The notes under the pieces were generated by a model, which was not told the DNA's origin, did not search any database, and saw only the letters and a program-made list of their open reading frames with translations. Below are positions 9,210 through 55,800 of a DNA stretch of 64,000 bases, one piece after another; position 1 is the first letter of the stretch, and every line of letters begins with the position of its first letter. This DNA is from Astropecten irregularis. Its lineage: Eukaryota > Echinodermata > Asteroidea > Paxillosida > Astropectinidae. The stretch is taken from the NCBI GenBank assembly GCA_963971285.1, contig OZ020262.1:9740745-9804744 (forward strand), in the 5' to 3' direction. The translations under genes and the position numbers were made by a program.

Positions 9210-10390
9210 CGAAGTCGTCCTTCTTGCCTGCCCCCACGTCGTGTTTATCGACCGCATGCACACCCACCTTCGACTAACCAGAAGACATCCGTACTGTGAG
9301 GTGCTGGACACCGTGGAGAGGTCACGACAACCTACTTTACCAAGTCAGTCACCGACATCTACAACTCATCGATAGACAGGAATGTAGGCAAGACCCTACA
9401 TTGAGGACTTACTTTTACCGTAGACACAACTCGTTGATTACAATTGTAAATGTTTATCAATATTGCTTACAATTTTCCCTCCAGTATTAGATTTATGCTA
9501 AGTACTTTTTGAAAGCTTTATATTTATATATGTGTTTTGTAGAACAAATAGCCCACTGTTAACAGCATTACTAATTATCTGTTTAAATATTGAAGCGGCA
9601 TTTTGATTTAGTTAGTAATTAGCCTGGCTATTGTTAATTATTCGTGTAATTAATTGGCAATTATTTCTTGTTAGAGTTTATTTGTTGAAATCAAGGGGAC
9701 TGGGTTTGGCAGTGGATAGTCTCAACTCTGTTTGTTTTTATTTTAAGAGCAAGGAAGGTTGTAAGATTCTACTTAGCTTGATCTCTGTTTGTTGGGAAGT
9801 TTTTATTTTACAATCCCGGCAAATTTTGCGGACTGTCCCTTTTGTATGTCACAGTTTTATGTCACGTTACACAAATGCATGTCAGCGGATGTCTGAGCTG
9901 GTATGTTGATTTGGATCATTGAGGCTCCAGCTCGGCATCTGGAAGCTTTCCAGCCATTTTGCTTATCTGCTCACTCTATCCAAGCATAAAGCGGGAACTT
10001 GACAAGCTGGAGTGCCAAAGAATTGATGGTTACATTTCTCCAGAGCGTCATTCTTTTGGAGCAGGCATTTTTATCCGATTGTCTGACTATTATCTTTTTA
10101 CAGCAACTACTTTTTCATTCTTTTATTTTTTTTGTCTGGCATGACCCAAGGCCATTTTAACATGAACTTCGTTATCCTTACCACGCAGTTTGTCATTTAC
10201 AGGAAGTGAGCATTTAAGCCATGGTTTATGACGCAAATTATGAACAAGCTAAGCCTGCACTAGTATTTCCTGGTACTCCTTCTCAAGACACGCTGGTAGT
10301 TTCTTGAAAGACTCCACAACAATTCCCTGTCAGTACTCAGCAAGGTCAGTTTCTTGAGACTGTGAAGTTAATTTATCGGAAAGTTCCAAT

Positions 10391-17238: not shown

Positions 17239-20200
17239 ATGCAAAATGGAGGAACGGAACCAAACACGGCCAGCAAGATGCAACAAGCTCAGATGAGACG
17301 AGATGCCGAGATAAGGATGCTCGGAGGAGTTGCTATGGCAACCGGTAGCATCATAGGCTCATCCAGTTCTACGTCCTCTCACGCCGTCTCGGAACTCCGG
17401 GATGATGTGAGGATGATGCTGAGCCAAGGGGTAGGAGGAGCGAAACAGGGAGGACCGTTAGCTGTATCTTCTGTGAACACTCTTGGTGACAGGTTGATGA
17501 GAACAGGTGCAGAGAGGGCACAGGACGTACCCGACGAAGGAGTACAAGAAACGTTAAGGTGAATCCGAGCTTGGAAGCTCTCCTCCTATGATTCTAAGTG
17601 CTCTGAATCCAACAGTATCCTACACCAAGCACATTATATTTTGATGGATCATGTTGAATGAAAAGAAACTGAAGTGAAAGATTCTCATGTCACATTGTTG
17701 AATGGGAGACTTTTGAGAATCAGTCTTCAAGTCAACAGCGCAGGCGCAAAACAACGCGGCACATTCTCACAATTGCGTGCGCGTGCGCTGTTGACTTGAA
17801 GACCGGTTCTCAAAAGTCTCCCATTGTGTTAGATTACAATAACCCTAGTACAGTGGAATGCCGCTACACTGTATAACGAACATGTATGGCAGGATGCACA
17901 GATATTGTCCGTTATAGTGGTCGTTCGTTATAGTGATTTAAGAACCATATTGGGTATGTATTGTACACAAAAATTGGGAGCCAAGGATAATGTTCGGTAT
18001 ATCCAAATGTTTATAATAGCCGTATTCGTTATAGTGGCGTTCCACTGTAGTAACCACTAAGCTAGATGCCTTTCAGTCCACCAAATGGCACGTTATTTCA
18101 ATCTTAAAACTTTCAATCTATAACTAAGTCTAACCTATGTTAATTTTTGGAAATCCTTCTTTTCAGCAAGGAAGTATTTACTAAATACCAAAGCTCTGAC
18201 CTCATTACTGGAGCTAGATACCATCCAGGGGACATTGTAGAGGCTGCGTCACTCGCGGTAAGTATGGGGCACCAAGGTAATGACCAAGGGCACCCTGGCA
18301 ACGACCAGAGGCTCCAAGGCAATGACCAGGGGCACCAAGGGAATGACCAGAGGCACCAAGGCAATGACCAGGGGCACCAAGGCAATGACCAGGGCCACCA
18401 AAGCAATGACCTTGGGCACTAAGGCAATGACCAGGGGCACCGAGGCAATGGCCAGGGCCATCAAGGCAATGACCAGGGGCACCGAGGCAATGACCAGGGG
18501 CACCAAGGGAATGACCAGAGGCACCAAGGCAATGACCAGGGGCACCAAGGCAATGACCAGGGCCACCAAAGCAATGACCTTGGGCACTAAGGCAATGACC
18601 AGGGGCACCGAGGCAATGGCCAGGGCCATCAAGGCAATGACCAGGGGCACCGAGGCAATGACCAGGGGCACCAAGGCAATACCAGGGCCACCAAGGCAGT
18701 GACCAGGGGCACAAATGAATTTGCCTTGATTGATTTTGTAAAGATAAAGCCATCTTTTGCAGAAGTTTATACAACTATAACAACTCGTAATTTATCTTCC
18801 TTGTTTTAGGCTATTCCTCTGCCCAAAGCGACCTATGACCTTTCTGCATCTATACCTTCTGAGCTCATTACCCAGCGTAAATTGAGTCGTCTTCAATTGG
18901 AAGGAATCTTGTATGCAGTAAGTAGAAGCATAAAGCTCTGAAATATACCAGCAACCTAACACACTGAGTACACATCAAGTGAGGGATGCTGCAAGGCTAA
19001 ACATTTTAGGAGCCCAAGACCCTTGGCAAAGCCCTGGGTCCAATTTCATGGAATCTATTACCGTACGCCACAAATCTCCACTTACGATAGCAGACTTTTT
19101 TGCTTATGGTTAGAGTATTTAATTCATGGGAGAGTTTTCTTTCTGGCAATGCTAAACAAGGACTTTCTGCGGAATGCATATTTCAGCGCGTTAGCAGAAA
19201 ATAATATTCATGGTTTATTATTAGTGCCTGTAAGCACAAAAATAGGCCGAAATGGATTCCATGAAATTGGGCCCGGGCCAACCAATATTGAAGTTTGTCC
19301 CCCTTAATAAACACCAAAATGCAGCAGTATACAAAGCATAAACAAAAATATCCCATAGCCATGCTCCATTTAAGTTAAAAACAAGTTCCTTCAAGGAAGG
19401 TGATTTGTCGAGTTACTTATGCTTGATGTTCTTGCGTTCATAATTTGACAGTGCCAGCGTCACCAGAACATCCTACCCAACGGCCACCGAGCCGGCTGCT
19501 TCATAGGGGATGCTGCAGGAGTTGGTAAAGGAAGACAGGTGAGTTTCTATTTTGATTAGCTGTTTGGGATTCGAACCAACAACCACTGAAATATCGTACT
19601 GGCGCTCTTACCAACTGACCTATCCAGCCCTACGTTGGCGGTGTCCCTAATAGTCAATTATCTTTGTTCTTTTGGAAATCAGAAGCCATGAAACCACTCA
19701 CATACCGTAATTTTGTCCCAAGGATCATTTACGGTAAGATTCGCGCAACATAGAACTGGATAGCTCAGTTGGAAGTGTACCCATATGGATTTCCGGAAGT
19801 TGCTGGTTCGAATCCCGCTCTGGTCAGTTTTTCTTCGTTCACTTTTCACTGACTTTAATAAGCTGTTTATACATCCCTACTACAAAGCTAGTACCATAGG
19901 TTCAACTTAATAAAATAATCATTTGAGTGATAACTGTGGACAGAGTTATAAAGATACAACTTTTTGTTTTATCATCAGGACATAATTTACATAACAGATG
20001 CTTTGTATTTTAGGTATTTCTTGATTTTCCTCTCCATTTTGAAACAGATTGCCGGTATAATCTTGGACAATTTTGGCAGAGGTCGTACCAAGCACATATG
20101 GTTCAGCATTTCAGCAGATTTGAAAGTGGACGCTCAAAGGTACATGCTAGATTTGTTTGTTTTGTTTTGTTTTGTTTGTTTTATGGGAATATTAAAATAG

Positions 20201-23200
20201 TCATCCCAATTCAAAAACAATATTATAAAGTCTTTACTTTACATTACACCTGTAAGAAACATCAGTGGTTTTGGCAATATTGTACCTGGACATGGGGCCA
20301 CATTTACTCTCCTGAAACCATCTCAACTCCCTGGGGAGTATATAGCCCTGTCTACTGTAAGGCACACAAAGGCTAATCAACCACAAAGCCATCTCTACCC
20401 TCACATTTACCCATTTACACCTGGGTGAAGAGAAACAGTTATTACTGGCAAAGTGTGTATCATCAAGAATTCAAGCTTATTTGTTAAAACAGAGGAATGC
20501 CGCTATAAGGAACACCGCTACACCGGACATTTAGCTGTACCGACTACCGAACATCATCCTTGGCTCCCAATTTTTATGTACAATGTATAGGCCTGCTGAA
20601 CAACCACTACAATGAATGACCACTATAACGAACAATTTCTGTGCATCCCAGCGTGTTCGTTTTAGTGGCGTTTCACTGTAGTACCAAGTTTGAATTTGTT
20701 TTGAGTGAGTTTGTTTGTTTGTATGTTTGTTAAATTTTTCTCATTTTTTCCTCAGGGATCTTCATGATATTGGTTGTCACATCAAAGTAATAGAAGGATG
20801 TCAACAACTCGATAAGGAAACCAAGTATGCACCTGTCTGTTTGTCCCTCTGTTTGTCTACCTGTCTATCTATCTCCCCACTGTGTTATATTGTCTGGCAT
20901 TTTATGACCAGGGTCCAATTTCATGGAGCTGTTAAGCACACAAAATTTGCTTAGCACAAAAGTCTTGCTCAATAAAACAAACCACCATTAAAAATTCCAT
21001 TTGATATTCATGGTCAGCAAACAACAGCCAAAGAACAATCACAAGTGATAAACATAACATATGGAAATTTGGTTGTTAATCCTGTTTTTTTATTAAGACA
21101 GAAATTTCATGGTTAGCAAATTTTTGTGCTAAGCAAGGCCGTGAAATTGGCCCAAGTTTACTTATTTGTAACCATTTGTTTCAAGACGTTTTTTTATCAT
21201 ATACCTTGACTTAACAAGGACTTGAACCCAAGACCTTGCGAGTGCCATACCATCACTCTACCCTCTGACCTATCCAGGCCTAAGATGGTTGCTTACCAAT
21301 AGCCCCTTTGAAGAAAACTATGAATGTTGAATGTATTATAATCTTCACATTTTGTCATCTTGGTTTTTCAGAGTTCTCGGTCTGCCAAAGGATTTCCAGC
21401 AGGGAGTGATTTTCAGTACCTACGCAACTCTCATATCCTCTACTCAAAAAGGAGGTACGTTGAGTGAAAAAGTACATGATTGTGAGGATTTTAAACTTTT
21501 CAAAACAGAGGTCATCGGAAATCTTTCAGATTTGGTGTAGTTATAACAGCATTCTATGGTCCAGTCAAAAAATCTGGGTACTGATGACAATCTTCTTTGT
21601 AAAAATGCTACACTACTCCTATCCAGTGCAGCACACAAATCCTTGATTGTGAAGTCAAGGCTTTGTTGTCATTTTGTGTGCAAATATCTTCAAGCTCGGA
21701 GAAAGCTTCATCAGAGCTCTATTCACTGATGCATTGGAGGAACTTGTTTTGTTTCGGGGTCGTTTTTTTACAAAAGGCGATGGCTTTGGTTTTTGCATTC
21801 AGGTTCGTTGGGGTCAGCTCGGCAGAGTCGCTTGGATCAGTTGATTCGTTGGTGCGGAGGCGAAGACTTCACCGGCTGTCTCATCTTTGACGAATGCCAC
21901 AAAGCTAAACATTTCGTCCCAGTAAGTCAGAAACAACGATCTTGTCAAACGAAGTTCTTGTCTTAGATTACTCAGATTTGAGGCTATGCATGGAAGAAAT
22001 ACATACAGTTTTGCGGTAGCAACATGTGACATGGGGTGGCTCTGAAAAGAGATGGTTAACTCGACGTTCTGGTCAGTATGCTCTGGCCGTCTTGAGGAGA
22101 AGTCCTTGTCATTCAAAGTCCAAGAAGGAAAAAAGACAACAACAAATGCAAACAAAAGCAAGAGAATTGACCGTTGACATTAAATTTGTCATTGTTACAG
22201 GGCCAAGAAAACAGAAGCACCAAAGTGGCGTTTGCCGTGACAACCATTCAGAGGTGAGATTAACGACTTCTTTGTATCCTAGATTTTTTTTATAGTATTC
22301 CTTTTCTTCAGTTGTAAAGAAATTGATATTTTATTTTTATTTTCTTATTTTTTTTATCAGATTACTACCCCGTGCTAGGGTGCTGTACTGCAGTGCAACG
22401 GGAGTTACCGACGTAAAAAACATGGTGAGGTTGCCTTGGAAAAATCTAGATTTTGCCCTGTCGTCCACCTTAACCAGTGACCCACAATTGTACAGAATTG
22501 AGGCCTTTTCCGAACCTCGGATGTGGCTCCAGCTCCAGCTACATTTCGTGAATCCATTCTAAAATTCTAAAACTGGTATCAAAATAGAGGCTTTTGACTT
22601 GTAGATTCTCTGGTTTGAAAATGAAAACAGAGCTTAAGCTTCATTGACAAACCACATCCTATATTTTCAGCATATGGATGACAGAGACAAAGCCAAAGTT
22701 TGGAAAAGGCCCTTGGTATCAATTCATTGAAGATTGAAGTGCAACTGCGGGTGTCACTAATTGATGTTTGCTCAGTGCGACAGGTTTCCACAGTTGTACA
22801 AGTTAAAATCTTCTCAAGTTTATGTCTGTGGTATCTTGCTGCATTCCGCAAAGTTACTGGAACCAATTTGTCCGTCTCGTTTGAAAAACGTCTGTTTGTT
22901 TCTTGCAGGCTTTCATGGAGCGTCTTGGTTTGTGGGGAGATGGGGCCGCCTTCAAATCCTTCGAGCATTTCCTGGAAACAATCAACAAACGAGGACTTGG
23001 TGAGCACAAATGATGCAACTCAAAATCTGATTTCAATATGGCAAATCGCGCTAAATCTGTAGAATCTCCTTTAAAGGTAATATACTTTGGATTTTGTTTA
23101 AGAAATGAAGATTCATGGGCAAAAATATCAAGGAAGATATTTATAGTTATACTGTTATCTGTGAAATTTCAAGTCCCATACGATGCCCACTTTTTGAGAA

Positions 23201-26200
23201 AAACTGTGAAAAATGCTCATGGTATTTTTAAATCTGTTCACAGGAGTTTGATCTCTCTGAGATCAAAACTGTCTTGGGGCAACTAATTTTACTCCTTTCT
23301 AGATAAATACATCATTTAGGGCGGAAATATTTTAACAGTATGTTTCTACCAGCACCATCTTCATATCCTAAAAGTTATAGGTAAATCTGTGAACATTTTT
23401 GTTTGGGTATGTTGCCAATCCTGTACTGTACCTTTAATGACATTGTTTGATGAAGGTGTTGCCGAGATGCTCGCTATGGAAATGAAGGCATCAGGCATGT
23501 ACGTCTCCAGGGGACTAAGTTTCAAACAAGCTGAGTTTGTTACCGTGGAGATGGATTTAACACCGGAACAAGTGAAGATGTATGACACAGCGGCTCACGT
23601 GTGGTAAGTTGTCATGGCAACCTAACAAAAATTCACTCTGTGGTTTTTATTGCCAAACAGCTTGAAATGTGGCATGGGTCAGAGCACTAGTAAGCAGAAG
23701 GTTGTGGGTTCGAATCCCACCTGAGCCAGCGCATGATTTTTTCATGTGCACTCAACAAGCACGGAGTATGTAGTGCTCATCCACGTCGGTGAAGGCCAAG
23801 TCTAATTTGTATAAATGGAATTTAGTTAATCATATTGATAGTACCTCACGCTCAGTACCACACTGGCTTGTTCGGGCTGGATTCGAACCTTCAACCACCT
23901 GCTTACTAGGGCAGGTGTATCACCAGATACACCAGTAGCCTCTAAACAGTTCTCGACTTGGAGTCGAGTTGTTAAGCACCAAAAAAAATTGCTTAGCACA
24001 CAATATCTTGCTCAATAAAACAGACCACCATTAAAAAACGCCATTCGATATTCATGGTCAGTGAACAACATCCAAAGAACAATCACGAGTGATACACAAC
24101 ACATGGAAATTTGGTTGTTAATCCTGTTTTTATTGAGACAGAAATTTCATGGTTAGCAAATTTTGTGCTAAGGAGGGCCGTGAAATTAGCCCCCATGTTT
24201 TGTGTGATTAGGGAAATAAGCGCCAACATTTATACAAGAATTTGAATCTTCTTCCTCCAAGGAATGAACTGAAGACTTCTCTGGAAGCAGCCATGGGTCG
24301 GACCAACTCAGGAAACCCTCGTGTCTGGTCTTACTTTGGCGCTAGCCATCAGCGATTCTTCAAACAGTTGAGGTAAACAGTCAAGTGACTCACTTTCGAT
24401 CTTCAGTTCTTGCAGTTTCTAACTGAGCAAGTAGAGATGCAATTGATGGGACCCTTTAATTTATTATCATCTTCTAACATTTCTTTACAGCTGTTGAAAT
24501 TTTAAATCGAATTCAACCAAATTTGGTACAAAACTTGAGTGTTGCTCTTGTTGTCGTAATCAAAAAGTGGCAACGTGTCACAGCCGCAATGAAATGTGCA
24601 AAACGTGACAATAAATGGAATAGACCCATTCTTTGCGTTTCTTTTGTGACTTAATACATTGTTTTGAATAGACTGTTGTCCTCCAATATCACAAATAAGA
24701 TGCCAGTCTATGAAGATAGTAAGATGGTGGAGGTAAGGATTTTACAAGAGGGCGTCTTAAAGACAACCTGTTCGCTGTTTTGGGATTCCCTGTCGGGTTG
24801 CCCTTGTTATTCTGCGAGTCAAAACACCGTGGAACGGCACTCTAACGAACACCGCTATACCAAACATTGGCCTATACCGAATATCATCCTTGTCTCCCAA
24901 CTTTCATGTACAATACATACCCAATATGGTTCTTTAATTCACTATAACGAACGACCACTATAACAGACAATATCTGTGCATCCCGCCATGTTTGTTATAG
25001 GCGCATTCTTCTGTAATTCCTTTTTTGTAAATCCCAAGGAATTAGGCTTAAAAAATACAGTTTACTTTCAGCAGTAGCGTGATGACTTTTTGACATATTT
25101 CCTTGTTCCGTTTTGTGACAGTTTGGGTGTGAAGGTGCCGAGGATCGTCGAAGAGTCCAAGAAGGCCTTGAAGGATGGCTACTGCATCGTGATTGGCCTA
25201 CAGAGCACTGGTGAAGTAAGTAACCAACCAATCAAATGTCAGTTTGAGTCCTGGTAGCCAGATTTTAAAAGACCTACCCTCTTTGGGTGACCCTCCATGT
25301 ACTGTTTCTCATTGCTAATGCTGCACATATCTTCAGTAGTGATCCTTGGGATATAGCAGTATGTGAGTGGTTTCATGGCTTCTGACTGCCAAATGAACAA
25401 AGATAATTGACTATTAGAGACACCACCAACATAGGACTGGATAACTCAGTTGGTAAGATCGCCGGTACTGTATTCCAGAGATCACTGGTTCGAATCCCAC
25501 TCCAGTCAACATTTGTTAGTTCAATTTTCAATGAATTACAAAACTGTCAACCATTTCTGTTTCCAGGAGAGTGAATTTCTTGGCAGCCTTATTTGAAAGG
25601 GTTATTATCTGCCGCTGATATTTTTCTTGGTATTTGTTTTGTATTCCAGGCTAGCATGGACAGTGAGGTCTGCAAAAGTGACGGCAAGCAGTCTGGCTTC
25701 GTCTCTGTGTCTCGAGAGATCCTCATCCGATTCATCAACCTGTACTTCCCAACTCTAATCCTCTCGGTAAGAAACATCATTAGGGGAAGACTCTTAGGGG
25801 GATTACGGAACGGAGGCTCAGGCTCAGGCTCAGACTCAGACTCGATCAGGCTCAGGCCCAGGCCCAGGCTCAGACTCAGACTCAGACTCAGACTTAGGCT
25901 CCGGTTACATCTTGTGAATCTGCATTCTATATTAACATGTATTGAAATAGAGGCTTTTGGCTGCTGTTCTGAAGTAGATCCTCTAGTTTGAAAAGGAAAA
26001 CAGAGTTTCAGCTTCAATGAAAAACCACAACCTATATTTTCAGCATATGGATGACAGAGCCTGAGCCTGAGCCTCTGTTTCGTAAACCCCTTAGACTGCA
26101 GATGGCAGCGAAATAACTTTATTCTCCATTTGGGGAGTGTGTTTGTGCTGTAAGCACACAAAGGCTAGTGATCAAACCGCAAAGCCATCTCTACCCTCAC

Positions 26201-29200
26201 ACATATACCCATTTACACCTGGGTGAAGAGGAGCAATATGTGACAAAGCATCTTGCCCAAGGACGCAAGCACCACTAGCCCATGGCTGGATTCGAACCCA
26301 CAATCTATAGATTGACCACAAGATCTTGAGTACGATGCACCAGACCACTAGGTCACTTCACCCCACAATATTTAGGGAGTAGTGACGTAAAAAATGACAG
26401 AAAACCTGAAGCAACGAATTTAAACCTTTTGTCAAAGTCGGCTTTCTCAGTGTCTTCAACTCTTTCCCTGTCTTGGAATGTTCTTCGTTCGCCTTTTCCC
26501 CTCAGAATGAAGAGGCACCAAGACATGATAGCTGGAGTCAGACAGCTAAGGCGATGCTCCTAGACTTTGCCAAGAAGATGCCGCTTCCAAATAGGTCAGT
26601 AAGAAACAGAATTATGTTATCGAGGAATGTAGCAGTGGGCGATTCCAAATAGTGCGCCCCAACAGTTCGCAACGCGTTGGCCATTCACAATGCACGGAAT
26701 TTGTCAATAAAATGCGCATCTGAAAATGGTTGACAAATTTTATGCATTGCACTTGGCCAACTCGTTGCAAAATCTTGGCGGCGCACTATTTGGAATTGCC
26801 GAAATTATTTAAGATTTAAGTTTGTTGTAGAAGAAGTTGAATCTTTTGGTGAGTAGAAAATGTTATGTTCATTGGTTTGTTTGTTTTGGGTTTCCAGCTT
26901 GTCGAAATTTTTCAGTGTATGATAATTCCCCTCCATCTTTCTTCCTTAGTCCCCTAGATGACATCATCGATCAGCTTGGTGGTGCGACAGCCGTAGCCGA
27001 GATGACAGGACGTAAAGGTCGTATGATACGCGACGGACCAAACACGACGGCATGTTACCAAGCTCGTACTCCCCCAGACTCCAATGACGTCAATAGTTTG
27101 AATGTACAGGAGGTAAACTAATCAAGAATTAAGCCGTCATTTTACTCAAATTATTATTTTATTCATTTATTTGATTAAATCTTAATCTTTTTTCGTCTAT
27201 TCATCAAATAACCACAAGGGAAACTGACTGGATTAGTTTTAAGTCATTGAAAATTATGGCTCAGTTTAGTAAAAGTGTTGGTATGGTGTTCTGGAGGTCG
27301 CTGGTTCGATTCCCGCTCTTTCTATTTTTTTTCTGGTGCATTTATTGTTCAGCTTGCCCTTTCCTTGCTTGCTTGAATGTATGTGGTTTATGTTTGTGAT
27401 CATTTTGCAGAGGAATAGCTTCATGGTGGGAAAGAAGTTGATCGCTATCATCTCGGACGCAGCAAGCACGGGTATGAGAACAATCAGTCATTTATCCGAT
27501 CTTAAATAGAAATAGAAAACAGCCAAATTTCCAGTGGGCAATGAAAATTGTTCCTCTTTAATGTCACACTCCACATTCCAGACGCGCGCTTCATACGTGC
27601 CCTGGACATAAGCCATGGCTGTGATTGGTCAGAAACAAATGGGGCGACGCTCAATGGATCGGTCTGTTGGGTCATCGATCTGCATTACATTATAATTAGT
27701 CACCGAGCCTCGTTAATTTTGTTTTTCAATTTTATCCAGGTATTTCCCTACACGCTGATGCTCGGGCTAAGAACCAACGCAGACGGTTACATCTGACCAT
27801 TGAGCTGCCCTGGTCAGCTGATAAAGCCGTCCAACAAATGGGACGATCCCATCGGTCAAACCAAACCAGGTACGGTCACTACACCCATGAAGATTTCTTT
27901 AAATAGGTACTATCATACTTTGGTAGAATACCGAAACAGAAATCTTCACAGATTTACCTATAACTCACAGGGTATAAAGATGGTGATGGTAGAATTATAC
28001 CGTTAAAATATTTCCTCCTGAAATATTGTATCTATACAGAAAAGAGTAAAACCAATGTCCAAAAACAATTTCGATCTTGTAAAGATAAAACGGTGAAAAG
28101 ATTTAAAGAATACTGTGGCTGTTTTTCACTGTTTTCTCAAATATTGGGCACTGTATGGGACTGAAAATTTCACAGATGACTGTTACTGTATCTTTCTTGG
28201 TATTTTTGCCCATGAATCTGCATTTCTTTGACAAAAACCAAAGTATGAAATTACCTTTAAAGAGAAAGGAGAATTTTTGTCAGTCGTTGATTTTATCATT
28301 GCTTTTTATTATCATCATTTCTTATTTTTGTTTTCAGTGGTCCTCTTTACAAACTCCTCACAACCAATCTTGGAGGTGAGAGACGATTTGCGGCATCGGT
28401 AGCGAAGCGTCTACAAACTCTGGGTAAGATAAGACGGATCAAATTTGTTGTCACAGGGAAGCCAGACAACAGCCTGCATATTACACTCTCAATCACACAG
28501 GTTTTTCCTAAAGTAGATTTACCAGACGATCTTTTTTGGGAGATGAATTTTCGGAGGGAATGTTAATGAGCGATTGTTTTGCTTGGAGTTAGGAGGGCCT
28601 GACATTTTTTATCCTAGCAGGATCTTCTTCAAAAGCAAAAAATCGAAACGCGTCAGGCCCTCCTTATTCCAAGCATTTTATATATTTCAGGTCATTACTT
28701 TGGGCGATGAGCAGTTTATTACTTGCTTTGAAATAATCTTTTTGATGTTTGTTTGTCTGTTTGTTTGTGAAGGTGCCTTGACCCAGGGTGACCGCAGGGC
28801 CGCAACGGGAGCCGACCTGACACAGTTCAACTTTGACACGCCCTACGGACGATCAGCACTACGGACAATGTACACATCTATTTGTAACGTGAGTTAATTA
28901 TCCGTCATCTTAAAACGAGAACCAATTAATTGGCAAGTTGCTAATTCCGTAAGAGCAGCTGAACATGAATTGTGCTTTTAATATTACAAGTTCATTGGTC
29001 TAAGGTTCGAGTCCAGTCTAAGATAGCAAACAAACGGCAGATTACCAGCTACAATTTCATGTGATGCTTATTGTGTATGACTGGTACTTGGCTAGCACTG
29101 GCATAACACGAATATTGTGCAATTTTGATCTGGTATGAAGCAAGCTTCTTTGGTGAAGCTAGGGACTGGACTTGAACCTTAGACCAATGAACTGCCAATT

Positions 29201-32200
29201 AAGAGTTCTACCCTTATTTCCTCCTCTCCCCCATTCCAGGAGGAGCTTGCTCCCGGTGTCTCTCTATCGTCCATCTCTACCGGCCAAGAGGACTTCTCTG
29301 AGCTCAACGCAGAGCTCCTGGAGTGTCTGTCCTTCATGGGTGTGATGGAGTCGGTCACTGTCGGCCGTAAAGTGACCGATAAGGACAGCAGCAACGTCAG
29401 CAAGTTTCTCAATAGGATTCTCGGACTTCAAGTGGACCGGCAAAACCTGGTATCAGTTAGATTCTCTCTTCGTGCGTTCTTTATTTTGCTTAGCAGTTAG
29501 GATGAATTTACACTTAAGATCATTCTTAGTGCTTCATGACATCGCCCCCCGGTACAACTTTGTATATTGTCTGCTTCTGTCTGTAGATTTTCAACTATTT
29601 TAACGAGTGTCTCCAAGCACGAATCGCCATGGCAAAGAAGGAAGGAAAGTAAGTCAGATTTGTCAATTTTTTCATAAATCGCCCTGAAGTCAAACCTACA
29701 AAATCTTTATAATGTGCCCCTTAAAGAATATGACCAGCTTTATAGATTTTTGAATATTTATTTTGTCCCATTCACTTTGTACACGTTTTCAAAGAATAAA
29801 ATGTTAGATATTTCCGTACGCCTTTTGGTCATTAAACAATCTCTGATTTGACCAACAACAACAACAAAAATGAAAGAAAAACATGTGGAAATTAACTAAC
29901 TAAAAAATCCCTAGTTACACTTACATGAAGTTTCTAAGGGTGTTTACGAAACGGAGGCTCGGACTCGGGCTTAAGCTCCAGCTCTGTCATCCATATGCTG
30001 AAAATATAGGTGGTGGTTTTTCATTGAAGATGAAACTCTGTTTTCCTTTTCAAACTGGGGAATCTACTTCCGAACCGCAGCCAAAAGCCTCTATTTTGAT
30101 ACCCGTTATTTTAGAATGGATTCACAAAATTGAGCCAGATCCTGAGCCTGAGCCTCCATTTCGTAAACCCCATATGAGTTAGATTGGCTCTTTACTGTGT
30201 GACCATGGTTATGACGCGTCATATGAAGAAGCAACATTTTTCTTAAGCCACTCTTTTTCAGCCTTGCGTTCCTTCGGAAACTTATGTGAAGAGAATTTGA
30301 TGGCCTGTCCTGTGTAAGAATGAAACTTCAAGCCAGATGGCCATTGCTTTGATGTGGGACAAGCTCCTTCATATAACTATAAAGGTAAATTCTCCCAAAC
30401 CTCCCTCTTTGTCTGTATGTACAGGTACAGTGAGGGTCTGGTAGACATCAGTGCCTCATCAGTTGAGATGGTATGTTCTCCCAAAGTTGTCTTCAAGGAA
30501 GCTAATACCAGCACGCCAACACAGTAAGTATAGAGATCATAAACAGTGTAGCCGCTATGTCATGCTGATAGTAACTATCAGCACCCCCGTCATTCAATGA
30601 CTCCAATGTGCCTCATTATTGGTCTAGAGAGGGCGCTGTTCTGGACGCCATCTTTAGGGGTACAGGAGCAAAATCCTTTGGCTAATATATTACGGTAAAC
30701 GTAAGTATTAAAGGTGATTTCAAATTTCAATTGACAAAAATGCACTAGATTTTCAGGATTTTTTGCCAATTTGGGGGATAACTTAATGCAACCTGAACCT
30801 GTGTGTGTCTAACGAGAGGTTACTCAGGGAGATTCAGATGAGACCTATTACCTGCATGATACGTGAGCGCCACAGTGACGGTCATGTGGCTAGATTCCCT
30901 GCGAGTGATCCTGCTAGGCGGATTCTCTCTTTGAGAGAACCAGGGCTCGCCCGTTAGGGCATCCACATGACACGTGGTTGCGTCAGATGGATCGTTATTT
31001 TGCTGAGATGGGGATGGGTCACATGGCTGCCTGGGGGATGGCCATCAGGAGACCAGAGTACTGCTCGAAGGTAGATGCGGCAATGCTCTGTCATGATGCA
31101 AGCTCCCACTGATTAATAATTGATTGTTTGAACCCAAACCCACCAAGATGGCGGTAATAGAGCGCCACCATTTGGTTGTTTCTTATAATCCCCAGACTTC
31201 TGTCTCTGTCCGTGGATCGTGGTCTGAGCTGGGAGGCAGTCCTAGAGAGATCTCAACGATTCCAAGGCAAGGACGACGGCTTCTATTGCTCCAAACGAGA
31301 GCAGTTTGGCAAGTTGCTGTATATCCTAGCAACGCAGAAAGAGGATTCGTCACATCTCTTCAAGATTGCAAGGTGAGGCAATGGACCCCCCTCCCTCTGA
31401 AAAAATAATGAGAAGAGAAGAAATATCTTTAATCAAATTCATGGACCACTGAACATTTTTTTTATTTTTACATAAATTTGGACCAAAATTGTCAAATGCA
31501 TCAATTGGACTAAAAATAAACGCTATAGGTTAGGTTACACAAAGTATGGTGGTCTTGAATGGCCATATATAGTTTTAAAAATGCTCACACAAAAATATCA
31601 CTAGGCTAGTTTACACCAAGTATGGTGGTCTTGAATGGCCATGTAGAGTAAATAAATGCTCACATTGTGTCCCATGATGTTTCTTTCTTAAGAACAATAG
31701 TTTATTTCTGATAATTTCTTTTTGGGGTTTTTCATGTTGGTTTTCTCAGGCCCAATACCGGCGTGTCCCCCCATGACGAGGAGTTTGCCGATCTGACGCA
31801 GCGATATAAACCAATCAGAAAAGATGAAGCAGGTGACGTTTGCATTTCATTGTTTTACCTCCCCCAACCCCCCCCCCCCCCCCCCTCCCATGAAATATTC
31901 TAAATTCACTGAGTTTGGATTTCTCCCAAATTAACCTCTTGTTGCTAGGAGCAAAACTTCAGCAAAACTCTAAACTGAAAAATGTCTACTAAGATTTAGG
32001 AGGGCACTGGGTGAGCCGTACGACATCTGCTGGAGTGACCCATCCACAGTCCACTGATCACGGCATTGTGAACGCGAATCCCAACCTACAGGATATAACA
32101 GACTCCGCAGCATCCAGTTCTTCAGTTGCCTGATGAAGGCTAGCAGTTCCAGCAGTCGAAACGTCGCTACCACCAACACGACTTCGTGTGATTTTGATCA

Positions 32201-34987
32201 CCTTTTTTCCTTATCTGTACAGCGATGAATAATCCTTTTCCTTTCTTTATAAGGGCCTGTTTGTTGAATGCACAGGATCACGACTCTTGCTGATCCGGAT
32301 CCCATTTTAGCGTACCCTGCATAGGACGTGGATCCTTAAATCTGGGATCCTTTGCGTTAAACAAACAGGCCCTTAGTTTGCAGTTGTTTATTTCTTTGTC
32401 CAGAAATATTTGCCACTAAAAGATTTTTAAATTTTTTTTGTAGAGGAGGGATGGAAGGAACAATTTGAAGCAACGACCGAAAAGTGCATCCATGGTTCCC
32501 ACTGCAAGAATCCTGCTACATGCATGAGTAAGTTTGGTCATCAATAAATTATTCTAGATGCAGAGAATTCCAGAGAATTTACTCTCATCGGTCCTTTTCA
32601 GGACCACACACCTTCCAAATAGAGTGTCATACATGGTGTCTCCGCAAGCCTTACTTAGTTCTAGTCTCTCCACCATGCAAAACTTCAAATCCTACATTAG
32701 AATCTTTGATTGACCCCCCATGTACTGTTTCTCAGGTTGCAGCATTGCTAATGCTGCGCGTATCTTCAATGATCCTTGGGATATTGCGGTATGTGTGTGG
32801 TTTCATGGCTTCTGACTGCCAAAGGAACAAAGATAATTGACTATTTGGGACACCACCTACTTAGGGCTGGATAGCTCAGTTGGTATTGAGCACCGGTACG
32901 GTATTTCGGAGGTTGCTGGTTCTAATCCAGCTCCAGTCAATTTTTCTTTTCTTTTTTTTCACTTTTCACAGATTAGAATTGTCATTGTTTTAATGTTTAA
33001 TTGATTAATGCAACAAATTAATCAATCATCCACTAAATTTATGCTCAATTATTATTTAATTTATCACTATAAGTAGGTCACCAAGTATGGATCTCTTTTG
33101 ACATTGAATCTTATATTTGATAATTTGACCTTTTGACCTTTTGATGAAATTTGACCTTTAGTTGGTTCTCGTCATCACCGCATGGATCTGTTATGTGGTG
33201 GGATTGTAACCCTGCTGTCAACCCTCGAGACTACGGCTGCAAAACACGCTCAGAAGCTTGACCTGAGGTACTTCAAAATATGTGACGATTTGAAAAATTC
33301 ACCGAAATTCCATTTCTGCCATCCATTATCCATTTATTCATTATTCATAAAGGTACAGTACAGGATTGGTAACATACCCAAATAGAAAGATTTACCTATA
33401 AATTTCAGGGTATGAAGATGGTGCTGGTAGAAACATACCGTTAAATTATTTCCACCTGAAATGGTGTATTTATCCAGAAATTAGTAAAAACAAAGACCAA
33501 AAACAGTTTTGATCTCGGGGTAAGATCAAAACCATTCTCTATGTTTTATAAGAAAAATTGGCTATTTTCTTGTGACTCAGATGTCCGATTGAGCTGAATT
33601 TTCACAGGTTTCACAGGCATGTACATGCTGGATCAGACTCAGTGCGAGTGCTGTTCTGTGACCTTTGCCAATCATGTATTGTACCTTTAAAGAATTTTTG
33701 ATACGATTTTCACTTTGCATTGTTGATGTGTGAAAACGTTTTTTTTTCGTCTTTCTTCTTATAGTAAATCTAGTTACAGCATGCGAGTTGTACGCGTCGA
33801 ACTGAGCAACCAGAAACAGGTCATTGGAATACGTTACCCAGAATGCCTTGTGGAGATTGCGGAGGAAGCGTTACGCGAGCAGAAGATCATTGATGCTCTG
33901 CAAGCGGTAAGAACAAAAACTGAGCAAAATCTTTCCACCAAAATTGTCAAGTTATATAAATTTTACCTTTTTTTTTCTTAACTTTTTTATTGCAGTATCG
34001 TTGCCATAGAAATTGAGAGAAAATCTTACTTTTGACTTCTTCGGTTTTTTTTTAAACTTTATTATTGTATTATTTTCGTTGCCACAGAAACTGAGAGAAA
34101 ATCTTGCGAACGGTGCCACTGCAACTAGTTTGAACTCTGTTGATCTTGCCAAGCAGCCAAAGCTTGCCACTGTCGAGCCACCGTCGCCGGTCAATCCAAA
34201 ACTGGTAAAAAGGGCCATGACCGCCCCCATCACCCTCAACACATTCTTCAAGCCCGCCCCTCGATTCAACAATGGAGACTCCCAAAGCTCGCCGCCAGTG
34301 CAGGCCGGCGGTGGGAGAAGGGTAGATACCACTGCTCGTGCGGGGAAAGGGAAATCTGGAGGGGCTACACCAGGGAGGCAACGGTCTGGCAGATATTCAC
34401 TGAGATCTGCCTCAAAAGAAAAAGCGGACGACGCCAACGTGGAAAAAGGGGAGAAAAAGACGACTAAAGATAATCAAGATGACGACTGCTGTATCCTAGT
34501 CGAGGATAATGAACCCGATACTCCCCCACCAAAATTGAATGGTATGTCCCAGGTCACAGGTCACACACCAAAGGATGAATCAGCTGAAAGCCTTGTGGAT
34601 ACCTCCTCTGTCAAAGAAGGGGAGTCGACTACGGACGTCAAAAGTGAGGATCTGAGTATTCCGCGGCCGCAAAGCATTATGGGTATTAAATCATCCACAT
34701 CCAGCACCAGTCTATCCGTCGACAGCAGCGTAAGCACCCAGAGCTATTCAGTGAGCGGTCCGGGTACCAAACGCCCCCTGCAGGATGTGAATGGTCGCCC
34801 TGCCGACAGCTCTTGCCAACAGCCTGCTGCCAAAAAACAGAAATCGACCAGTAACCTGGAAGAAACTTTGACCAAGCAAGCGTTGCTGGGGAAACTGACT
34901 TGCCCCGTTTGCGACAAGGAATTTCCAACTGGAACGTGGATAGCACAGTTAAACAAGCACATTGACGCCTGCCTTCAAACAGCTTAA
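17239..34987 (+). CDS. SBNO: Strawberry-notch (SBNO) family helicase-like protein with C-terminal UBZ-type zinc finger, 30 exons
   Basis: Coding exons: 17239-17558, 18167-18257, 18810-18917, 19452-19538, 20048-20139, 20756-20824, 21372-21454, 21803-21921, 22201-22253, 22361-22424, 22909-22999, 23456-23603, 24262-24372, 25122-25215, 25650-25766, 26506-26594, 26950-27112, 27411-27471, 27740-27869, 28338-28423, 28773-28888, 29240-29449, 29587-29648, 30425-30523, 31196-31372, 31750-31832, 32444-32527, 33162-33267, 33765-33906, 34088-34987. All junctions are GT-AG and phases close to 1384 aa. Seen: Walker [11 protein letters not shown] (192-201), DECH box (313-316), SATG (352-355), LQSTGE, a motif VI-like QQMGRSHR (685-692), and the Cys-rich SBNO C-terminal domain encoded by exons 27-29. 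These match nuclear SBNO1/2 regulators along the whole core. The N-terminus is much shorter than SBNO1; an AG at 17215-17216 may be an acceptor, so upstream exons are possible. The tail after residue 1086 is not part of the usual SBNO layout: PIP-like ITLNTFFKP, acidic ILVED patch, KR...KKQK NLS, and C-x2-C-x15-H-x3-C finger (1357-1380). Probably a divergent SBNO paralogue. Confidence 0.93.
17701..17825. mobile_element. Palindromic MITE (AATGGGAGACTTT ends), copy 1
   Basis: Inverted arms share GGAGACTTTTGAGAA and CTTCAAGTCAACAGCGCA around a CG-rich centre. Lies in SBNO-like intron 1; second copy at 62695. Confidence 0.8.
17851..18047. mobile_element. Pogo/Tigger-like TA-flanked MITE, copy 1
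   Basis: Ends CAGTGGAATGCC and GGCGTTCCACTG are flanked by TA on both sides, as in Tc1/mariner-pogo elements. Interior palindrome of CGTTATAGTGG type. In SBNO-like intron 1. Confidence 0.8.
18268..18712 (-). repeat. 21-bp minisatellite, locus 2, with 168-bp higher-order unit
   Basis: About 21 copies of the 21-bp unit, here reading ATGACCAGGGGCACCAAGGCA on the plus strand. A block of eight units (168 bp) with the same variants occurs twice in tandem. The array starts about ten bases after the SBNO-like exon 2 donor. Confidence 0.95.
19036..19273. mobile_element. Foldback MITE with GGGTCCAATTTCATGG ends
   Basis: Ends GGGTCCAATTTCATGGAAT and ATTCCATGAAATTGGGCCC are inverse; the interior is also largely palindromic. 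In SBNO-like intron 3. Confidence 0.75.
19565..19745 (-). repeat. tRNA-derived SINE, minus-strand copy
   Basis: Inverse B box (GGATTCGAACC) and A-box region (TATCCAGCCCTACG) followed by the family's 5' part (CAGAAGCCATGAAACCACTCAC). Directly abuts a plus-strand copy at 19746. Confidence 0.75.
19746..19870 (+). repeat. tRNA-derived SINE, plus-strand copy
   Basis: GGATAGCTCAGTTGG A box and GGTTCGAATCC B box, spaced as in a tRNA, then the family tail. Head-to-head with the copy ending at 19745. No acceptor-stem pairing typical of a working tRNA was seen. Confidence 0.75.
20290..20445 (-). repeat. SINE fragment, CATTTACACCTGGGTGAAGAG family
   Basis: Shares CTCCTGAAACCATCTC, CCTGGGGAGTAT and CCATCTCTACCCTCACA with fuller copies at 26150 and 43600; the tRNA-like end is missing. 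Confidence 0.65.
20490..20678. mobile_element. Pogo/Tigger-like MITE, copy 2
   Basis: Ends CAGAGGAATGCCGCTATAA and TTTTAGTGGCGTTTCACTG; same interior as 17851. In SBNO-like intron 5. Confidence 0.75.
20911..21153. mobile_element. Foldback MITE (GGGCCAATTTCATGG family), complete
   Basis: Ends GGGTCCAATTTCATGGAGCTG and GGCCGTGAAATTGGCCC with TTAGCACA-type inner arms. In SBNO-like intron 6. Confidence 0.8.
22498..22712. mobile_element. MITE of the GAGGCTC family, diverged
   Basis: Interior TAGATTCTCTGGTTTGAAAATGAAAACAG-type sequence and CATATGGATGACAGAG match the copies at 25797, 29933, 57055 and 58461, with altered termini. In SBNO-like intron 10. Confidence 0.6.
23071..23437 (-). mobile_element. 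TTAA-flanked MITE with one type A and one type B end
   Basis: TTAA on both sides. One terminus is AGGTAATATACTTTGG (type A), the other is CCAATCCTGTACTGTACCT (type B). Its edge is 18 bases before SBNO-like exon 12. Confidence 0.85.
23678..23810 (+). repeat. tRNA-like SINE, CACCTGAGCCAGCGCATG family, copy 2
   Basis: B box GGTTCGAATCCCACCTGAGCC followed by GCATGATTTTTTCATGTGCACTCAA. An inverse tRNA-like segment follows at about 23865-23945. Confidence 0.7.
23953..24194. mobile_element. Foldback MITE (TTTCATGG family)
   Basis: GTTGTTAAGCACC...GGGCCGTGAAATTAGCCC; interior matches 20911 and 48096, left edge diverged. In SBNO-like intron 12. Confidence 0.7.
24825..25013. mobile_element. Pogo/Tigger-like MITE, copy 3
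   Basis: CACCGTGGAACGGCACTCTAAC...ATTCTTCTG with the family's CGTTATAG-type interior; more diverged than the other two. In SBNO-like intron 13. Confidence 0.7.
25290..25560 (+). repeat. tRNA-derived SINE, long copy
   Basis: A 5' part (CCTCCATGTACTGTTTCTCA, GTGGTTTCATGGCTTCTG) precedes a GGATAACTCAGTTGG A box and GGTTCGAATCC B box. The same long form occurs at 32715, so the tRNA-like part lies inside the repeat. Confidence 0.75.
25797..26094. mobile_element. Palindromic MITE with expanded CTCAGG/CTCAGA ends
   Basis: Ends GATTACGGAACGGAGGCTCAGG and inverse GAGCCTCTGTTTCGTAAACC flank the shared interior. The left arm has grown into a CTCAGG/CTCAGA array (about 25818-25903). In SBNO-like intron 15. 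Confidence 0.75.
26150..26370 (-). repeat. SINE, CATTTACACCTGGGTGAAGAG family
   Basis: Includes CCTGGGTGAAGAGGAGCAATATGTG-type body and an inverse tRNA-like end (GGATTCGAACCCACAATC). Second full copy at 43600. Confidence 0.75.
26637..26800. mobile_element. Palindromic MITE (GCGATTCCAAATA ends), copy 2
   Basis: GGGCGATTCCAAATAGTGCGCC and inverse GGCGCACTATTTGGAATTGCC. In SBNO-like intron 16. Confidence 0.8.
27898..28260 (+). mobile_element. TTAA MITE, end type A
   Basis: AGGTACTATCATACTTTGG to CCAAAGTATGAAATTACCT then TTAA. Fills most of SBNO-like intron 19. Confidence 0.8.
28580..28735. repeat. Dispersed palindromic repeat (GGAGTTAGGAGG family)
   Basis: GGAGTTAGGAGGGCCTGAC, AGCAGGATCTT and the closing TCAGGCCCTCC arm, then TCAGGTCATTACTTTGGGCGA. 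In SBNO-like intron 20. Confidence 0.7.
29933..30172. mobile_element. Palindromic MITE, GAGGCTC family
   Basis: GTTTACGAAACGGAGGCTC and inverse GAGCCTCCATTTCGTAAACC with the shared interior. In SBNO-like intron 23. Confidence 0.8.
31530..31665 (+). repeat. Short tandem duplication (~80 bp unit)
   Basis: Two copies sharing AGTATGGTGGTCTTGAATGG and AATGCTCACA in SBNO-like intron 25. Confidence 0.75.
32253..32372. mobile_element. Short MITE with GGGCCTGTTTGTT ends, copy 2
   Basis: GGGCCTGTTTGTTGAATGCA and inverse TTAAACAAACAGGCCC. In SBNO-like intron 26. Confidence 0.8.
32575..32685. repeat. Dispersed repeat (CCTTTTCAGGACCACACACC module)
   Basis: Contains CACACACCTTCC, ACATGGTGTCTCCG and CTTACTTAGTTCTA, shared in order with 41838-41911. 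Confidence 0.6.
32715..33000 (+). repeat. tRNA-derived SINE, long copy
   Basis: Same 5' part as 25290 (CATGTACTGTTTCTCAGG), GGATAGCTCAGTTGG A box and a mutated B box (GGTTCTAATCC). In SBNO-like intron 27. Confidence 0.75.
33347..33690 (+). mobile_element. TTAA MITE, end type B
   Basis: AGGTACAGTACAGGATTGG to CCAATCATGTATTGTACCT then TTAA. In SBNO-like intron 28. Confidence 0.8.
34226..34249 (+). other. PIP-box-like motif in SBNO-like tail
   Basis: Residues 1132-1139 read PITLNTFF, followed by KPAPR. The pattern L-x-x-F-F with a basic/proline-rich follow-up resembles PCNA-interacting (PIP) boxes, although the usual first Gln is Pro. It is a degenerate motif, so binding is inference. Confidence 0.45.
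34478..34519 (+). other. SUMO-interaction-like acidic/hydrophobic patch
   Basis: Residues 1216-1229 read [14 protein letters not shown]: a short I-L-V core framed by acidic residues, the usual look of a SUMO-interacting motif. Short motifs of this kind are common by chance, so the call rests on its context between the PIP-like motif and the zinc finger. Confidence 0.35.
34901..34972 (+). other. UBZ-type C2HC zinc finger (ubiquitin binding) of SBNO-like protein
   Basis: Cys1357, Cys1360, His1376 and Cys1380 form C-x2-C-x15-H-x3-C with CPVC at the start and LNKHIDAC at the end, four residues before the stop. This resembles the RAD18 and DNA polymerase kappa UBZ fingers; the spacer is nearer the polymerase kappa type than RAD18's 11 residues. 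The family usually binds mono-ubiquitin, for example on PCNA. Confidence 0.8.
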
Positions 34988-36270
34988 AGAAAGAACAATT
35001 GTTCTTTGGTTTCAAAGTCAATTCTGTTTCATCTTGTTACTTTTTTACCAAGGTGCTATTTTCAAGCTTTTTTAATACATAACATAGGAGACAAAAAAAC
35101 AAAATAAAACATTTTTATCTCTTTCTATATATATAAATATTTAATCATAGCGGTAGTGTTTAATGAGTACAGTGAGATTTGCAAGATTTAAACTTTGTTA
35201 TTTTACTAATTATATTTTGTAATTTATTAACAGTTATTAAAAGTGAAAGTACTACAGAGATAGTGGTTCATACAGGAAAAGTTGAAATTTAAACGACATT
35301 TTCACAAAAATTGCTTGGCTAAATTACACAAGTGTGGAATTTCAACTAACAGTCTAGTCCTACTGATTCTTTTGTTGTCATCAAAAAGTGAAGAAACAAA
35401 CATTTACTGGAGCGGGATTCGAACCAGCGACCTCCGAAATGCCAATTAACCAGTCAGTTTCCCTTGTGTTTTTTTTTTGTGAAAGATGACAAAATTCTGA
35501 AGTTTGTTCAAAAATTGTCATCTGCTTCTGACGAATTGAGGCTTATTATTAAGTGATAAGGCATAGGGGACATTCCTCATTACACATAGCACCTCTGATA
35601 TCCCTTTATATGTGGACCAAGTTTAAAGTTTTCTATGCCAACAAAAAACAAGGCCACAAACTTGAAAATGTTTCAAGGCAAACAGTGAAGAAAAAAAAAA
35701 AATTTCCTCTCAAATCTTGTCACTTCTGGAAAAAAAAAGAATGTTTATCAGTAGCATTAACAATCTCAGTGAAACTTGTTTAAATCATATTTTTTTGGTC
35801 AATCTTTGTTGGAAAACCCAGAGTTGTAGCAGTTAATTTGATAAAAAATATCAAGATATACACATACACATAATAGCAAATAAATTAAAAACGCTGAAAC
35901 CATACATATTTTTGTACTGATTTCAATGATGTACTTTCCATAGAAAAAAATCCAATACACAATATTTCTAGTCATATATAAAAAGATATAAACTTTTGCC
36001 CTAAAGTCCACACTGTTTACCACAAGAAACAAAGCAATATGATGTAAGCTTTTAGCAATTTTCAGACAACACAAATATGGAATGTGATATCGTTGGTAAT
36101 TATTAAGGACGAAAACCTTTCTTGAGATTAATGTTGGTGAATTCTACTGATTATCTTTTGCTCCTACCTATTTTTTATTTTTAATCTAAAAAGGATATGT
36201 GGATCAGTAATGGTAGAATCACAAGAAAACAGCTAATAACACTATGTCTAATTACAACTAGATTTCCATA
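34988..36270. other. 3' flank of SBNO-like gene, AT-rich
   Basis: Contains the poly(A) signal, a diverged minus-strand tRNA-like SINE end at about 35390-35470 (GGGATTCGAACC), and otherwise AT-rich sequence with no supported exon. Confidence 0.5.
35103..35108 (+). promoter_or_regulatory. Poly(A) signal of SBNO-like gene
   Basis: AATAAA lies about 115 bases after the stop codon in an A-rich stretch, the first such signal downstream. Confidence 0.55.
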
Positions 36271-52800: not shown

Positions 52801-55800
52801 TTAAAAGTGTATACATGGGGTGTATCAAACTCCTGTGTTGAGGCTATCATGCATTTCCACTGAGACAATCTAATGAAGCACATTCCAATCACCTTGCAAT
52901 GACTGCCATCTGGTACCAATCAGAGTCTCTTGTAATCACAAGAGACAATGAGTAAACAGAATTTGAATAATTCAGTAATTTTCCCTTTAAAAGAGCATAA
53001 CTTCCGGTTGAATGACGTCACAGATTTCAAACTTCACATACATGTCGTAGTACATTAGTGCTTTACAGTCACCAAATTTGGCGGAAATCTGTTGTTTACT
53101 TTTGGATTACGTAATCACTGTATATCTTTAATCCACCGTAGAGGGCGCTATACAGCCTGTATGACGTCATCGTTTATATTTTCTGAAAGCCCAAGACCTT
53201 CTCTATCTTTGACCCATTGAGGTTTTTTGTGCCTAAATCCTTCCGTTTTCGAGTTATTTTGAGTCAAACTTCAACTTCCGGTTACACCGGAAGTGAAGGT
53301 CATTTGTACACAACATATATATATTAATTGGTAAGATTTACGTGTTGAGTAACATATGTCAATATCAAAATCGTAGGTCATGTGGTTCTGAAGTTATGGG
53401 GCACCAAAGTTTTTCCTAAAAACACGTGTAATTTGATACCCGATGACGTCATCATGACGTCAATCTTCTAAATACAACTTGGGATCACGACCGAAGTTCC
53501 CACCAAGTTTCAAGTCAATATCTTGTAACCGTGATATAGAAGTCCTGCTGACAAGTTTGGGAGGAAAAAAAATGGAAAAAAAAAACTCGAACAATTTCAA
53601 TAGGTGTTCGGCTTGAACCCGAACACCTAATTATTCATGTTGGTGGAGAACAGACCACTTCAAACTTCTTGTTTAAAGGTGAACGAAAACAAATTGTTGT
53701 CTGTTAGTCACATCACAACAATATCAGATCGTCGGTAAGTTAAGGGCATTTGAACTTCAATTTTATGATGTCATATTTTGTGTTGGGCAGGAAGTTTGAG
53801 GCAGCCTTCTGTGTCATATTACAGGATATTGTGCTTTATATAAGTAATAAACTGATGCAAAGTGCTAGTCATCAGCCAAAATAATGACCGGAAATTTATA
53901 AAATGAGGGGTGTTAGGAGGGCCTGACGTGTTTAACACCCGTCACCCAGGGCTCTATTTCATAAAAGTTAGGAATATTCCTATCTGGGACTTAGGAACAA
54001 TAATTGTTCCTAAGTTATTTAGGAACATTTATTTAGGAAGATTCCTAAGTACTCTTTATGAAATAGAGCCCTGGACACAGTCACCTTCAGCCACCATTAT
54101 GCCAGAACTCTTAGCCTTAAGAACTCTCCAATAGCGCTGCGCACTGACGCTAAAAATAGCACCGAACCTCAGACAAACATTGCAACGTGGCCATGCAAAC
54201 GTTGGTGAGTGGAAGTATGAGTGCGCGTCGCGCGTGGTGTGACGTCATTAGTGCGGAACGCTTTTCACCATTTTCCTCGCATATATTGCAACCTACCAAC
54301 TTATATTAAGGACTCTCTTGTACTAGACTCATTTCAGTGTCTTAATCGGGCATTAACTGCTCACTACCATGAAGATTCATAATTTTTCTATTGCTTTTTG
54401 CTGACATGTTGGATTTGTTTATTTTTTTATGATGAAATGTGTGTTTGTCAAGCTGTTTGTTTTTCTTGTCTGTCCTCAATTGTTACCCCTCTGTTTATTC
54501 CCCCTTGTCCTGAGTAACAATCCTTACTTCTACCATCTGTTGTGTTTGATGTATTTGTTGGTTTGCTGGTTGCTGTTGTTGTTCTTCCTTGTGTTATCTT
54601 ATTGTTGTCTTTCTTTCTTGTTGTCTTATTAGTATCTTTGCCTTGGATATTGTGCTCTTGGACTTCTTGTACTTTTGGACTTGTAAGATGAGTGTCCAAT
54701 GTCCAATGTCACCAGCCTATTGTCATTGTGTGTCTAGTCTATCGTCATTGTGAGTCTTGTCTATCACCACTGTGTTTCCTGTTGTTGTTTTTCTTTTATG
54801 TCCAAGTGTCACTTTGTCCGGGATATTACGTGAGTGTTTATATGTATCCTTCGGCCTGTCCACAGTCACTATTTATGTCTTAATTATCCATTACCAGTCC
54901 ATCTGGTGCTTGCCATTTTCTGTATGAAGATCATTCTGTATTTCTTTTCTGTTTTCAACACTACATTTACAGATTAGTCTTACATTTTGGATGAATTTAT
55001 TTGCTTATCAAATTATCTATTTAGTTTTGTTGTTCTCTTAACTTATTTTACTTTTTACACTTATGCTATTTATTTTGTATATTTTCTTATTTTAATATCT
55101 GAGTATATTCATGATTTTTATTTATTACAATATGTGTACCATCTTTGGATTGGATGAGCAGGCTTTCGAGTCACAGTGTCTTCACTTTTGCTCATCCTGG
55201 CCGTCCTAAGTTTGGCTTTTCTCTTCTTATGTGCATTTGTTCTTCCCAATCCCATCACCCACTCCACCCTCCCCAAACCCACTCCACCCCACCCCAACCC
55301 ACTCCACCCCTCCCCAACCCACTCCTCCCCAACCCACTCAACCTCGCCCCAACCCACTCCACCCCTCCCCAACCCACTCCTCCCCAAACCCACTCCACCC
55401 CACCCCAACCCACTCCACCCCTCCCCAACCCACTCCTCCCCAACCCACTCAACCCCAACCCACTCCACCCCTCCCTATCCCACTCCACCCCACTCCATCC
55501 TTCCCCTACTCTCTCCACCCCTCCCCAACCCACTCCTCCCCAACCCACTCAACCCCAACCCACTCCACCCCTCCCTATCCCACTCCACCCCACTCCATCC
55601 TTCCCCTACTCTCTCCACCCCTCCCCAACCCACTCCTCCCCAACCCACTCAACCCCAACCCACTCCACCCCTCCCTATCCCACTCCACCCCACTCCATCC
55701 ATCCCCTACCCTCTCCACCCCTCCCCAACCCACTCCTCCCCAACCCACTCAACCCCCACCCACTCCACCCCTCCCTATCCCACTCCACCCCACTCCATCC

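Follow-up and report, generated by a model that had tools for sequence, protein, structure and literature searches.

What is a zinc finger of apparently ubiquitin-binding kind doing at the end of a strawberry notch helicase? The question is raised by a locus of the sea star Astropecten irregularis, which lies in a stretch of 64,000 nucleotides (assembly GCA_963971285.1, contig OZ020262.1, positions 9,740,745 to 9,804,744 of the forward strand; hereafter the window), and at which a complete gene of the SBNO (strawberry notch) family continues past the helicase into a tail with a predicted UBZ-type finger. To our knowledge, the substrate of SBNO motors is unsettled. Our tentative answer is that the tail of this protein would bring its motor to ubiquitinated PCNA at replication forks.

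The SBNO-like gene and its last exon

The gene was modelled from peptide anchors, chosen with known SBNO sequences in mind, and splice scoring. Thirty exons, separated by 29 GT-AG introns, form a frame that has no internal stop and closes at a single terminal stop, giving a protein of 1,367 residues, and the gene appears free of signs of a pseudogene. At 25 of the 29 junctions, that of exons 29 and 30 among them, the model follows the top-scoring splice pair; at junctions 1/2, 4/5, 11/12 and 20/21 a lower-scoring pair was taken, which preserved the alignment with the family, and the start codon is a choice, being the first ATG in the open frame. The original prediction had drawn the same last exon and a closed frame over 30 exons, and both were reproduced.

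Comparison with Pfam detected three domains, AAA_34 (E 4.6e-123, 410 bits against a cut-off of 27), Helicase_C_4 (E 7.5e-104, 348 bits against 30.5), and the SBNO alpha/beta domain PF25373 (E 2.4e-26, 92.7 bits against 24), and exons 25-29 also close the SBNO-like part of the protein (MRVVRVEL...VIGIRYPE). The motor motifs are intact, with Walker A at residues 175-184, the DECH box (DECHKAK) at 296-302, and motif VI (QxxGRxHRSNQ) at 668-678. By its three domains and intact motifs, the encoded protein is a member of the SBNO/strawberry-notch helicase family. No sequence match to the motor (residues 1-1068) was found in PDB with phmmer at E<=1. SBNO1, SBNO2, Drosophila Sno and plant FORGETTER1 (FGT1) have the same three domains and intact motifs, whereas the window protein adds a tail of 299 residues with a UBZ-type finger. 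FGT1, described as the single-copy orthologue of Sno, SBNO1/2 and let-765, bears a PHD finger instead (PMC5040591).

The whole tail is carried by exon 30, which was scored under a codon model derived from exons 1-29 versus the introns of the same gene. In the frame joined to exon 29 the exon scored +0.206 bits per codon, with the remaining five frames below zero, and all three of its thirds preferred that same frame among the three forward frames. The maximum over six frames in 500 intron windows was -0.013, below the score of exon 30; exons 1, 17, 22 and 25 scored higher (0.38-0.54), but belonged to the training set. Between 33001 and 36000, the first polyadenylation-type hexamer is ATTAAA at 34685, within exon 30. 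Because the exon has a coding score in frame, and the first hexamers occur only within or after it, the join of exons 29 and 30 is well supported, and the claim that the finger is part of this SBNO-like protein held up. Exon 30 could instead come from a separate transcript, or the gene model could be wrong at this join, and two points would fit this: the join is predicted from genomic sequence, and intron 29 (33907-34087) contains two similar 3' splice sites, a copy of the exon 30 acceptor and first codons lying 78 bases upstream with 27 of 34 letters alike. However, the top-scoring splice pair closes the frame, exon 30 is coding in the expected frame, and the hexamers begin inside it, an AATAAA following the stop codon at a distance of 115 nt, and we consider a separate transcript or a faulty join very improbable. 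Both acceptors, at 34010 and 34088, are in frame, so that the gene could give rise to two isoforms, one 26 residues longer than the other.

The tail finger and its proposed target

The ligands of the C-terminal finger are C1340, C1343, H1359 and C1363, and together with an H-x-D-x-C-L helix they follow the UBZ4 ligand pattern. The original prediction had placed this C2HC finger at residues 1357-1380; it is present, at numbers 16-17 lower since the start codon differs. Across its six frames the window contains one match to the UBZ4-like pattern, and 20,000 shuffles of the exon 30 protein contain none; a looser C2HC pattern matches twice in the window (six frames) and in 0.005% of shuffles. The top PDB sequence match of the finger was the UBZ of human RAD18 (2mre), with an E of 0.28 that is not significant alone and an alignment running through CPVC and NKH-(L/I)-D-x-C-L; a second RAD18 construct had an E of 0.75. 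The likeness to RAD18 is confined to the finger, as no RAD18 domain was found by Pfam elsewhere in the window protein. An AlphaFold2 model from the single sequence is beta-beta-alpha, with a mean predicted local distance difference test (pLDDT) score of 75. When this model was compared with PDB by Foldseek, 106 matches were obtained at E<=10 (best E 0.16), with ranks 1-15 all occupied by ubiquitin-binding fingers; among the best 50 of the 106 there were 24 such fingers, from TAX1BP1, NDP52, RAD18, WRNIP1 and FAAP20. The best Pfam match, below threshold, was the autophagy-receptor zinc finger, a family which we take to be of the ubiquitin-binding kind. From sequence and predicted fold, the finger is probably UBZ-type; the support is good, though not conclusive.

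Three shorter stretches precede the finger: a PCNA-interacting peptide (PIP)-like motif, a SUMO-interacting motif (SIM)-like patch, and a nuclear localization signal (NLS)-like stretch. The ITLNTFFKP that had been called PIP-like (residues 1132-1140 in the earlier numbering) is there, although it has no Gln and is non-canonical. A narrower form of the pattern, picked after the motif had been seen, arises in 0.035% of tail shuffles, and by itself the PIP-like motif is weak. The letters assigned to an ILVED patch (1216-1229) and an NLS (1313-1337) were likewise recovered at lower residue numbers; both stretches, read by eye, are leads. Matches to the tail at three loci in viral_contigs (L032-L034, an identical protein) came from a phage protein rich in zinc knuckles, which has only the string CPVCDKEF in common with the tail, plus scattered letters before it, and were dismissed as chance.

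The arrangement of the window protein resembles that of SPRTN/Spartan (DVC1), in which a catalytic domain is followed by a PIP at residues 325-332 and a RAD18-like UBZ at 456-475 of 489 (PMC9240642), and in which PIP and UBZ together give a preference for ubiquitinated PCNA (PMC3510514). The two differ in that SPRTN is a metalloprotease with a proven PIP, whereas the window protein has an SBNO ATPase and a PIP-like motif lacking Gln. By analogy, the SBNO motor may be directed by its own tail to ubiquitinated PCNA at forks that are stalled or carry lesions, a proposal that we put forward while rating it somewhat short of probable. The predicted finger would grip ubiquitin on a chromatin protein, the PIP-like motif would supply a weaker contact with PCNA, and the two would jointly pick out ubiquitinated PCNA in the manner of SPRTN, with the motor then remodelling protein-DNA complexes or fork DNA. 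Should PCNA not be the target, a different ubiquitinated protein of chromatin would be next in line. UBZ mutations in Pol eta reportedly left function unimpaired, which calls for caution.

A number of observations weigh against this proposal, in addition to the genomic basis of the exon 29/30 join. The finger scores below every Pfam cut-off, none of its 106 Foldseek matches reaches E<=0.001, the spacing from Cys pair to His is 15 as against 11 in RAD18, and a chain of the unrelated KDM2A matches a different stretch of the tail at E 0.41, near the value for RAD18. What stands of the predicted UBZ-type finger is the resemblance by sequence and predicted fold; a curated profile cut-off is nowhere reached. 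The finger could accordingly be a degenerate one, or some other small C2HC finger that binds nucleic acid or protein and has no affinity for ubiquitin, and besides the profile cut-offs, this would suit the weak Pfam scores, which extend to the RAD50 hook and C2HE, and the four non-ubiquitin binders among the 28 top Foldseek rows. We think it rather unlikely, given that the Asp at His+2 and the flanking NKHxDxCL agree with RAD18, and that the fifteen leading Foldseek matches are exclusively ubiquitin-binding. The PIP-like motif departs from the canonical Q-x-x-(L/I/M)-x-x-(F/Y)-(F/Y), since PITLNTFF has Pro at the Gln position, and a pattern scan found no Q-type PIP anywhere in the exon 30 tail; the pattern freed of Gln arises in 1.6% of tail shuffles and matches 271 times in six frames of the window. 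No tail relative that could speak for conservation of the motifs was found in the animal's own genome, where the tail matched only itself, or in viral_contigs; NCBIfam returned no family for it either. Finally, work on SBNO and FGT1 points to transcription (PMC5040591, PMC12289961), and the increase in DNA damage after loss of mouse Sbno1 is attributed to a transcriptional route via Yeats4 expression (PMC12289961).

The finger may alternatively read ubiquitin on histones or further proteins of chromatin (e.g., H2A-Ub at breaks or promoters), which would make the protein a chromatin co-regulator, as known SBNO proteins are, and the PIP-like motif accidental. The weakness of that motif is in keeping with this, as is the lead of the Foldseek list by fingers from TAX1BP1, an adaptor outside DNA repair. 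The PHD finger of FGT1, which binds histone H3 in a protein that acts with chromatin remodellers (PMC5040591), is also a precedent for the coupling of a reader finger to an SBNO motor. On the other hand, the order of PIP and then C-terminal UBZ is closely that of SPRTN (PMC9240642), and the examined proteins with this type of UBZ all belong to damage tolerance, according to the authors of PMC3510514. We regard a chromatin role as a serious possibility that falls short of being probable, with histone-ubiquitin reading nearly as likely as PCNA reading.

A second SBNO gene and more distant relatives

When the genome (475.7 Mb, 168 contigs) was searched with the AAA_34 profile, the best-scoring candidates fell in two places, the window (5 matches) and a second contig, C10 (6 matches). 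The C10 gene, modelled without some of its exons, has what we take to be SBNO1-like features and the classical SBNO1 ending; in the simplest version of its end, the protein stops 34 residues past the KIVG motif and has no tail, and six frames of the 50 kb around it contain no C2HC pattern, strict or loose. The window protein is 44% identical to the C10 protein (an incomplete model) and 41% identical to a phage homologue, L014. In a tree whose outgroup consisted of nine homologues from phages and bacteria, the window and C10 proteins formed one branch (100/100), within which the branches leading to them are long (1.25 and 1.14 changes per column); in the trees, the residue make-up of the window row was flagged as odd. 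The identity of 44% and the long separate branches indicate, therefore, that the duplication is old, and judged by these comparisons the window gene is an old SBNO paralogue distinct from the classical-type gene in the same genome, as the prediction of a paralogue had it. If the window protein were drawn to ubiquitinated PCNA, the finger-less C10 protein would retain the family's known role in transcription.

A fragment of Arabidopsis FGT1 whose sequence is provisional, and which is a lead only, was 52.8% identical to the window protein and 57.8% identical to the C10 protein over 564 columns. In a tree that included this fragment, C10 grouped with FGT1 (87/91), and the approximately unbiased (AU) test rejected a pairing of window with C10 (p 0.0196) but did not reject one of window with FGT1 (p 0.153). 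If the provisional letters are correct, the split would predate the divergence of plants and animals. It is conceivable, though we think it doubtful, that the window gene represents a third eukaryotic class of SBNO, older than the plant/animal split, that acts through its PIP-like and UBZ tail at ubiquitinated PCNA and was retained in some invertebrates, with classical SBNO and FGT1 as transcription-side sisters.

Relatives of the motor were found at 17 loci, seven of them in genome_contigs, all bacterial, and one plus nine in viral_contigs; a search with the C10 protein returned no motor relatives. Nine of the 17 were taken into the trees, leaving out L014 (which shares its contig with L023), L029 (whose scores equal those of L026), and L018-L022 and L031 (short matches). 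The nine have uninterrupted frames of 1,497 to 4,284 codons, some clipped at the fetched ends. The motors at L014/L023, L024-L030, L016 and L017 are SBNO-like and lie within long prokaryotic or phage frames. While these phage and bacterial proteins (L014/L023, L016 and others) share a homologous motor with the window protein, they differ from it in their uninterrupted frames, in their place outside the eukaryotic branch, and in having no UBZ-like pattern, which is absent from all 17 loci (200,483 bases, six frames).

Table 1. Features of the SBNO-like gene, in window coordinates and residues of the predicted protein
Feature	Position	Strand	Basis
Complete SBNO-like gene, 30 exons	17239..34987	+	29 GT-AG introns, frame closed by a single stop
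Exons 2-12, N-terminal half of the helicase (AAA_34, residues 109-420)	18218..23603	+	Pfam
Exons 17-24, C-terminal helicase half (Helicase_C_4, residues 563-845)	26950..30523	+	Pfam
Exons 25-29, SBNO alpha/beta domain (residues 881-989)	31196..33906	+	PF25373 and alignment
Intron 29 segment between two similar 3' splice sites	34010..34087	+	Splice scoring, letter comparison
Exon 30, tail of 299 residues and stop	34088..34987	+	Coding score in frame
PIP-like motif of ten residues, containing ITLNTFFKP (residues 1116-1124)	34226..34255	+	Pattern scan
SIM-like patch, CCILVED, acidic surroundings (residues 1202-1208)	34487..34507	+	Read by eye
Basic NLS-like stretch, KRPLQD...AAKKQK (residues 1296-1320)	34769..34843	+	Read by eye
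Predicted UBZ-type C2HC finger, C-x2-C-x15-H-x3-C	34901..34975	+	Pattern scan, RAD18 UBZ match, Foldseek
AATAAA polyadenylation signal	35103..35108	+	Hexamer scan

Elsewhere in the window, an open reading frame at 10358-11695 (+), of 445 residues, resembles by eye a carbohydrate sulfotransferase, and two repetitive stretches that are open in several frames, 18262-18702 (in intron 2 of the SBNO-like gene) and 55115-56028, have the appearance of tandem repeats rather than genes. The assembly also includes a mitochondrial genome contig of 16,335 bases, whose COX1 has ten in-frame TGA codons and on which the genes run, by eye, in the order cox1, nad4L, cox2, atp6, cox3, nad3, nad4, nad5, nad6 (minus strand) and cob, while nad1 and nad2 are also encoded on the minus strand; this is presumably the sea-star arrangement. 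Two further COX1-type sequences were seen: an open frame of 552 residues without TGA (C131:32162-33484), on a contig that appears to derive from a bacterial contaminant or symbiont, and an incomplete COX1 containing seven TGA codons (C25:9951047-9952018) that is likely a nuclear copy of mitochondrial DNA.

A motor joined to a proposed ubiquitin reader

In searches of an open-access library we found no paper linking strawberry notch to a UBZ, Rad18-type or ubiquitin-binding finger, and automatic annotations of such SBNO and finger proteins may exist in protein databases. If the reading of the tail is correct, the fusion of motor and ubiquitin reader would name a class of substrate for SBNO motors, namely ubiquitinated chromatin or PCNA, and, as this animal has two SBNO genes, transcriptional and repair roles could be assigned to separate paralogues.

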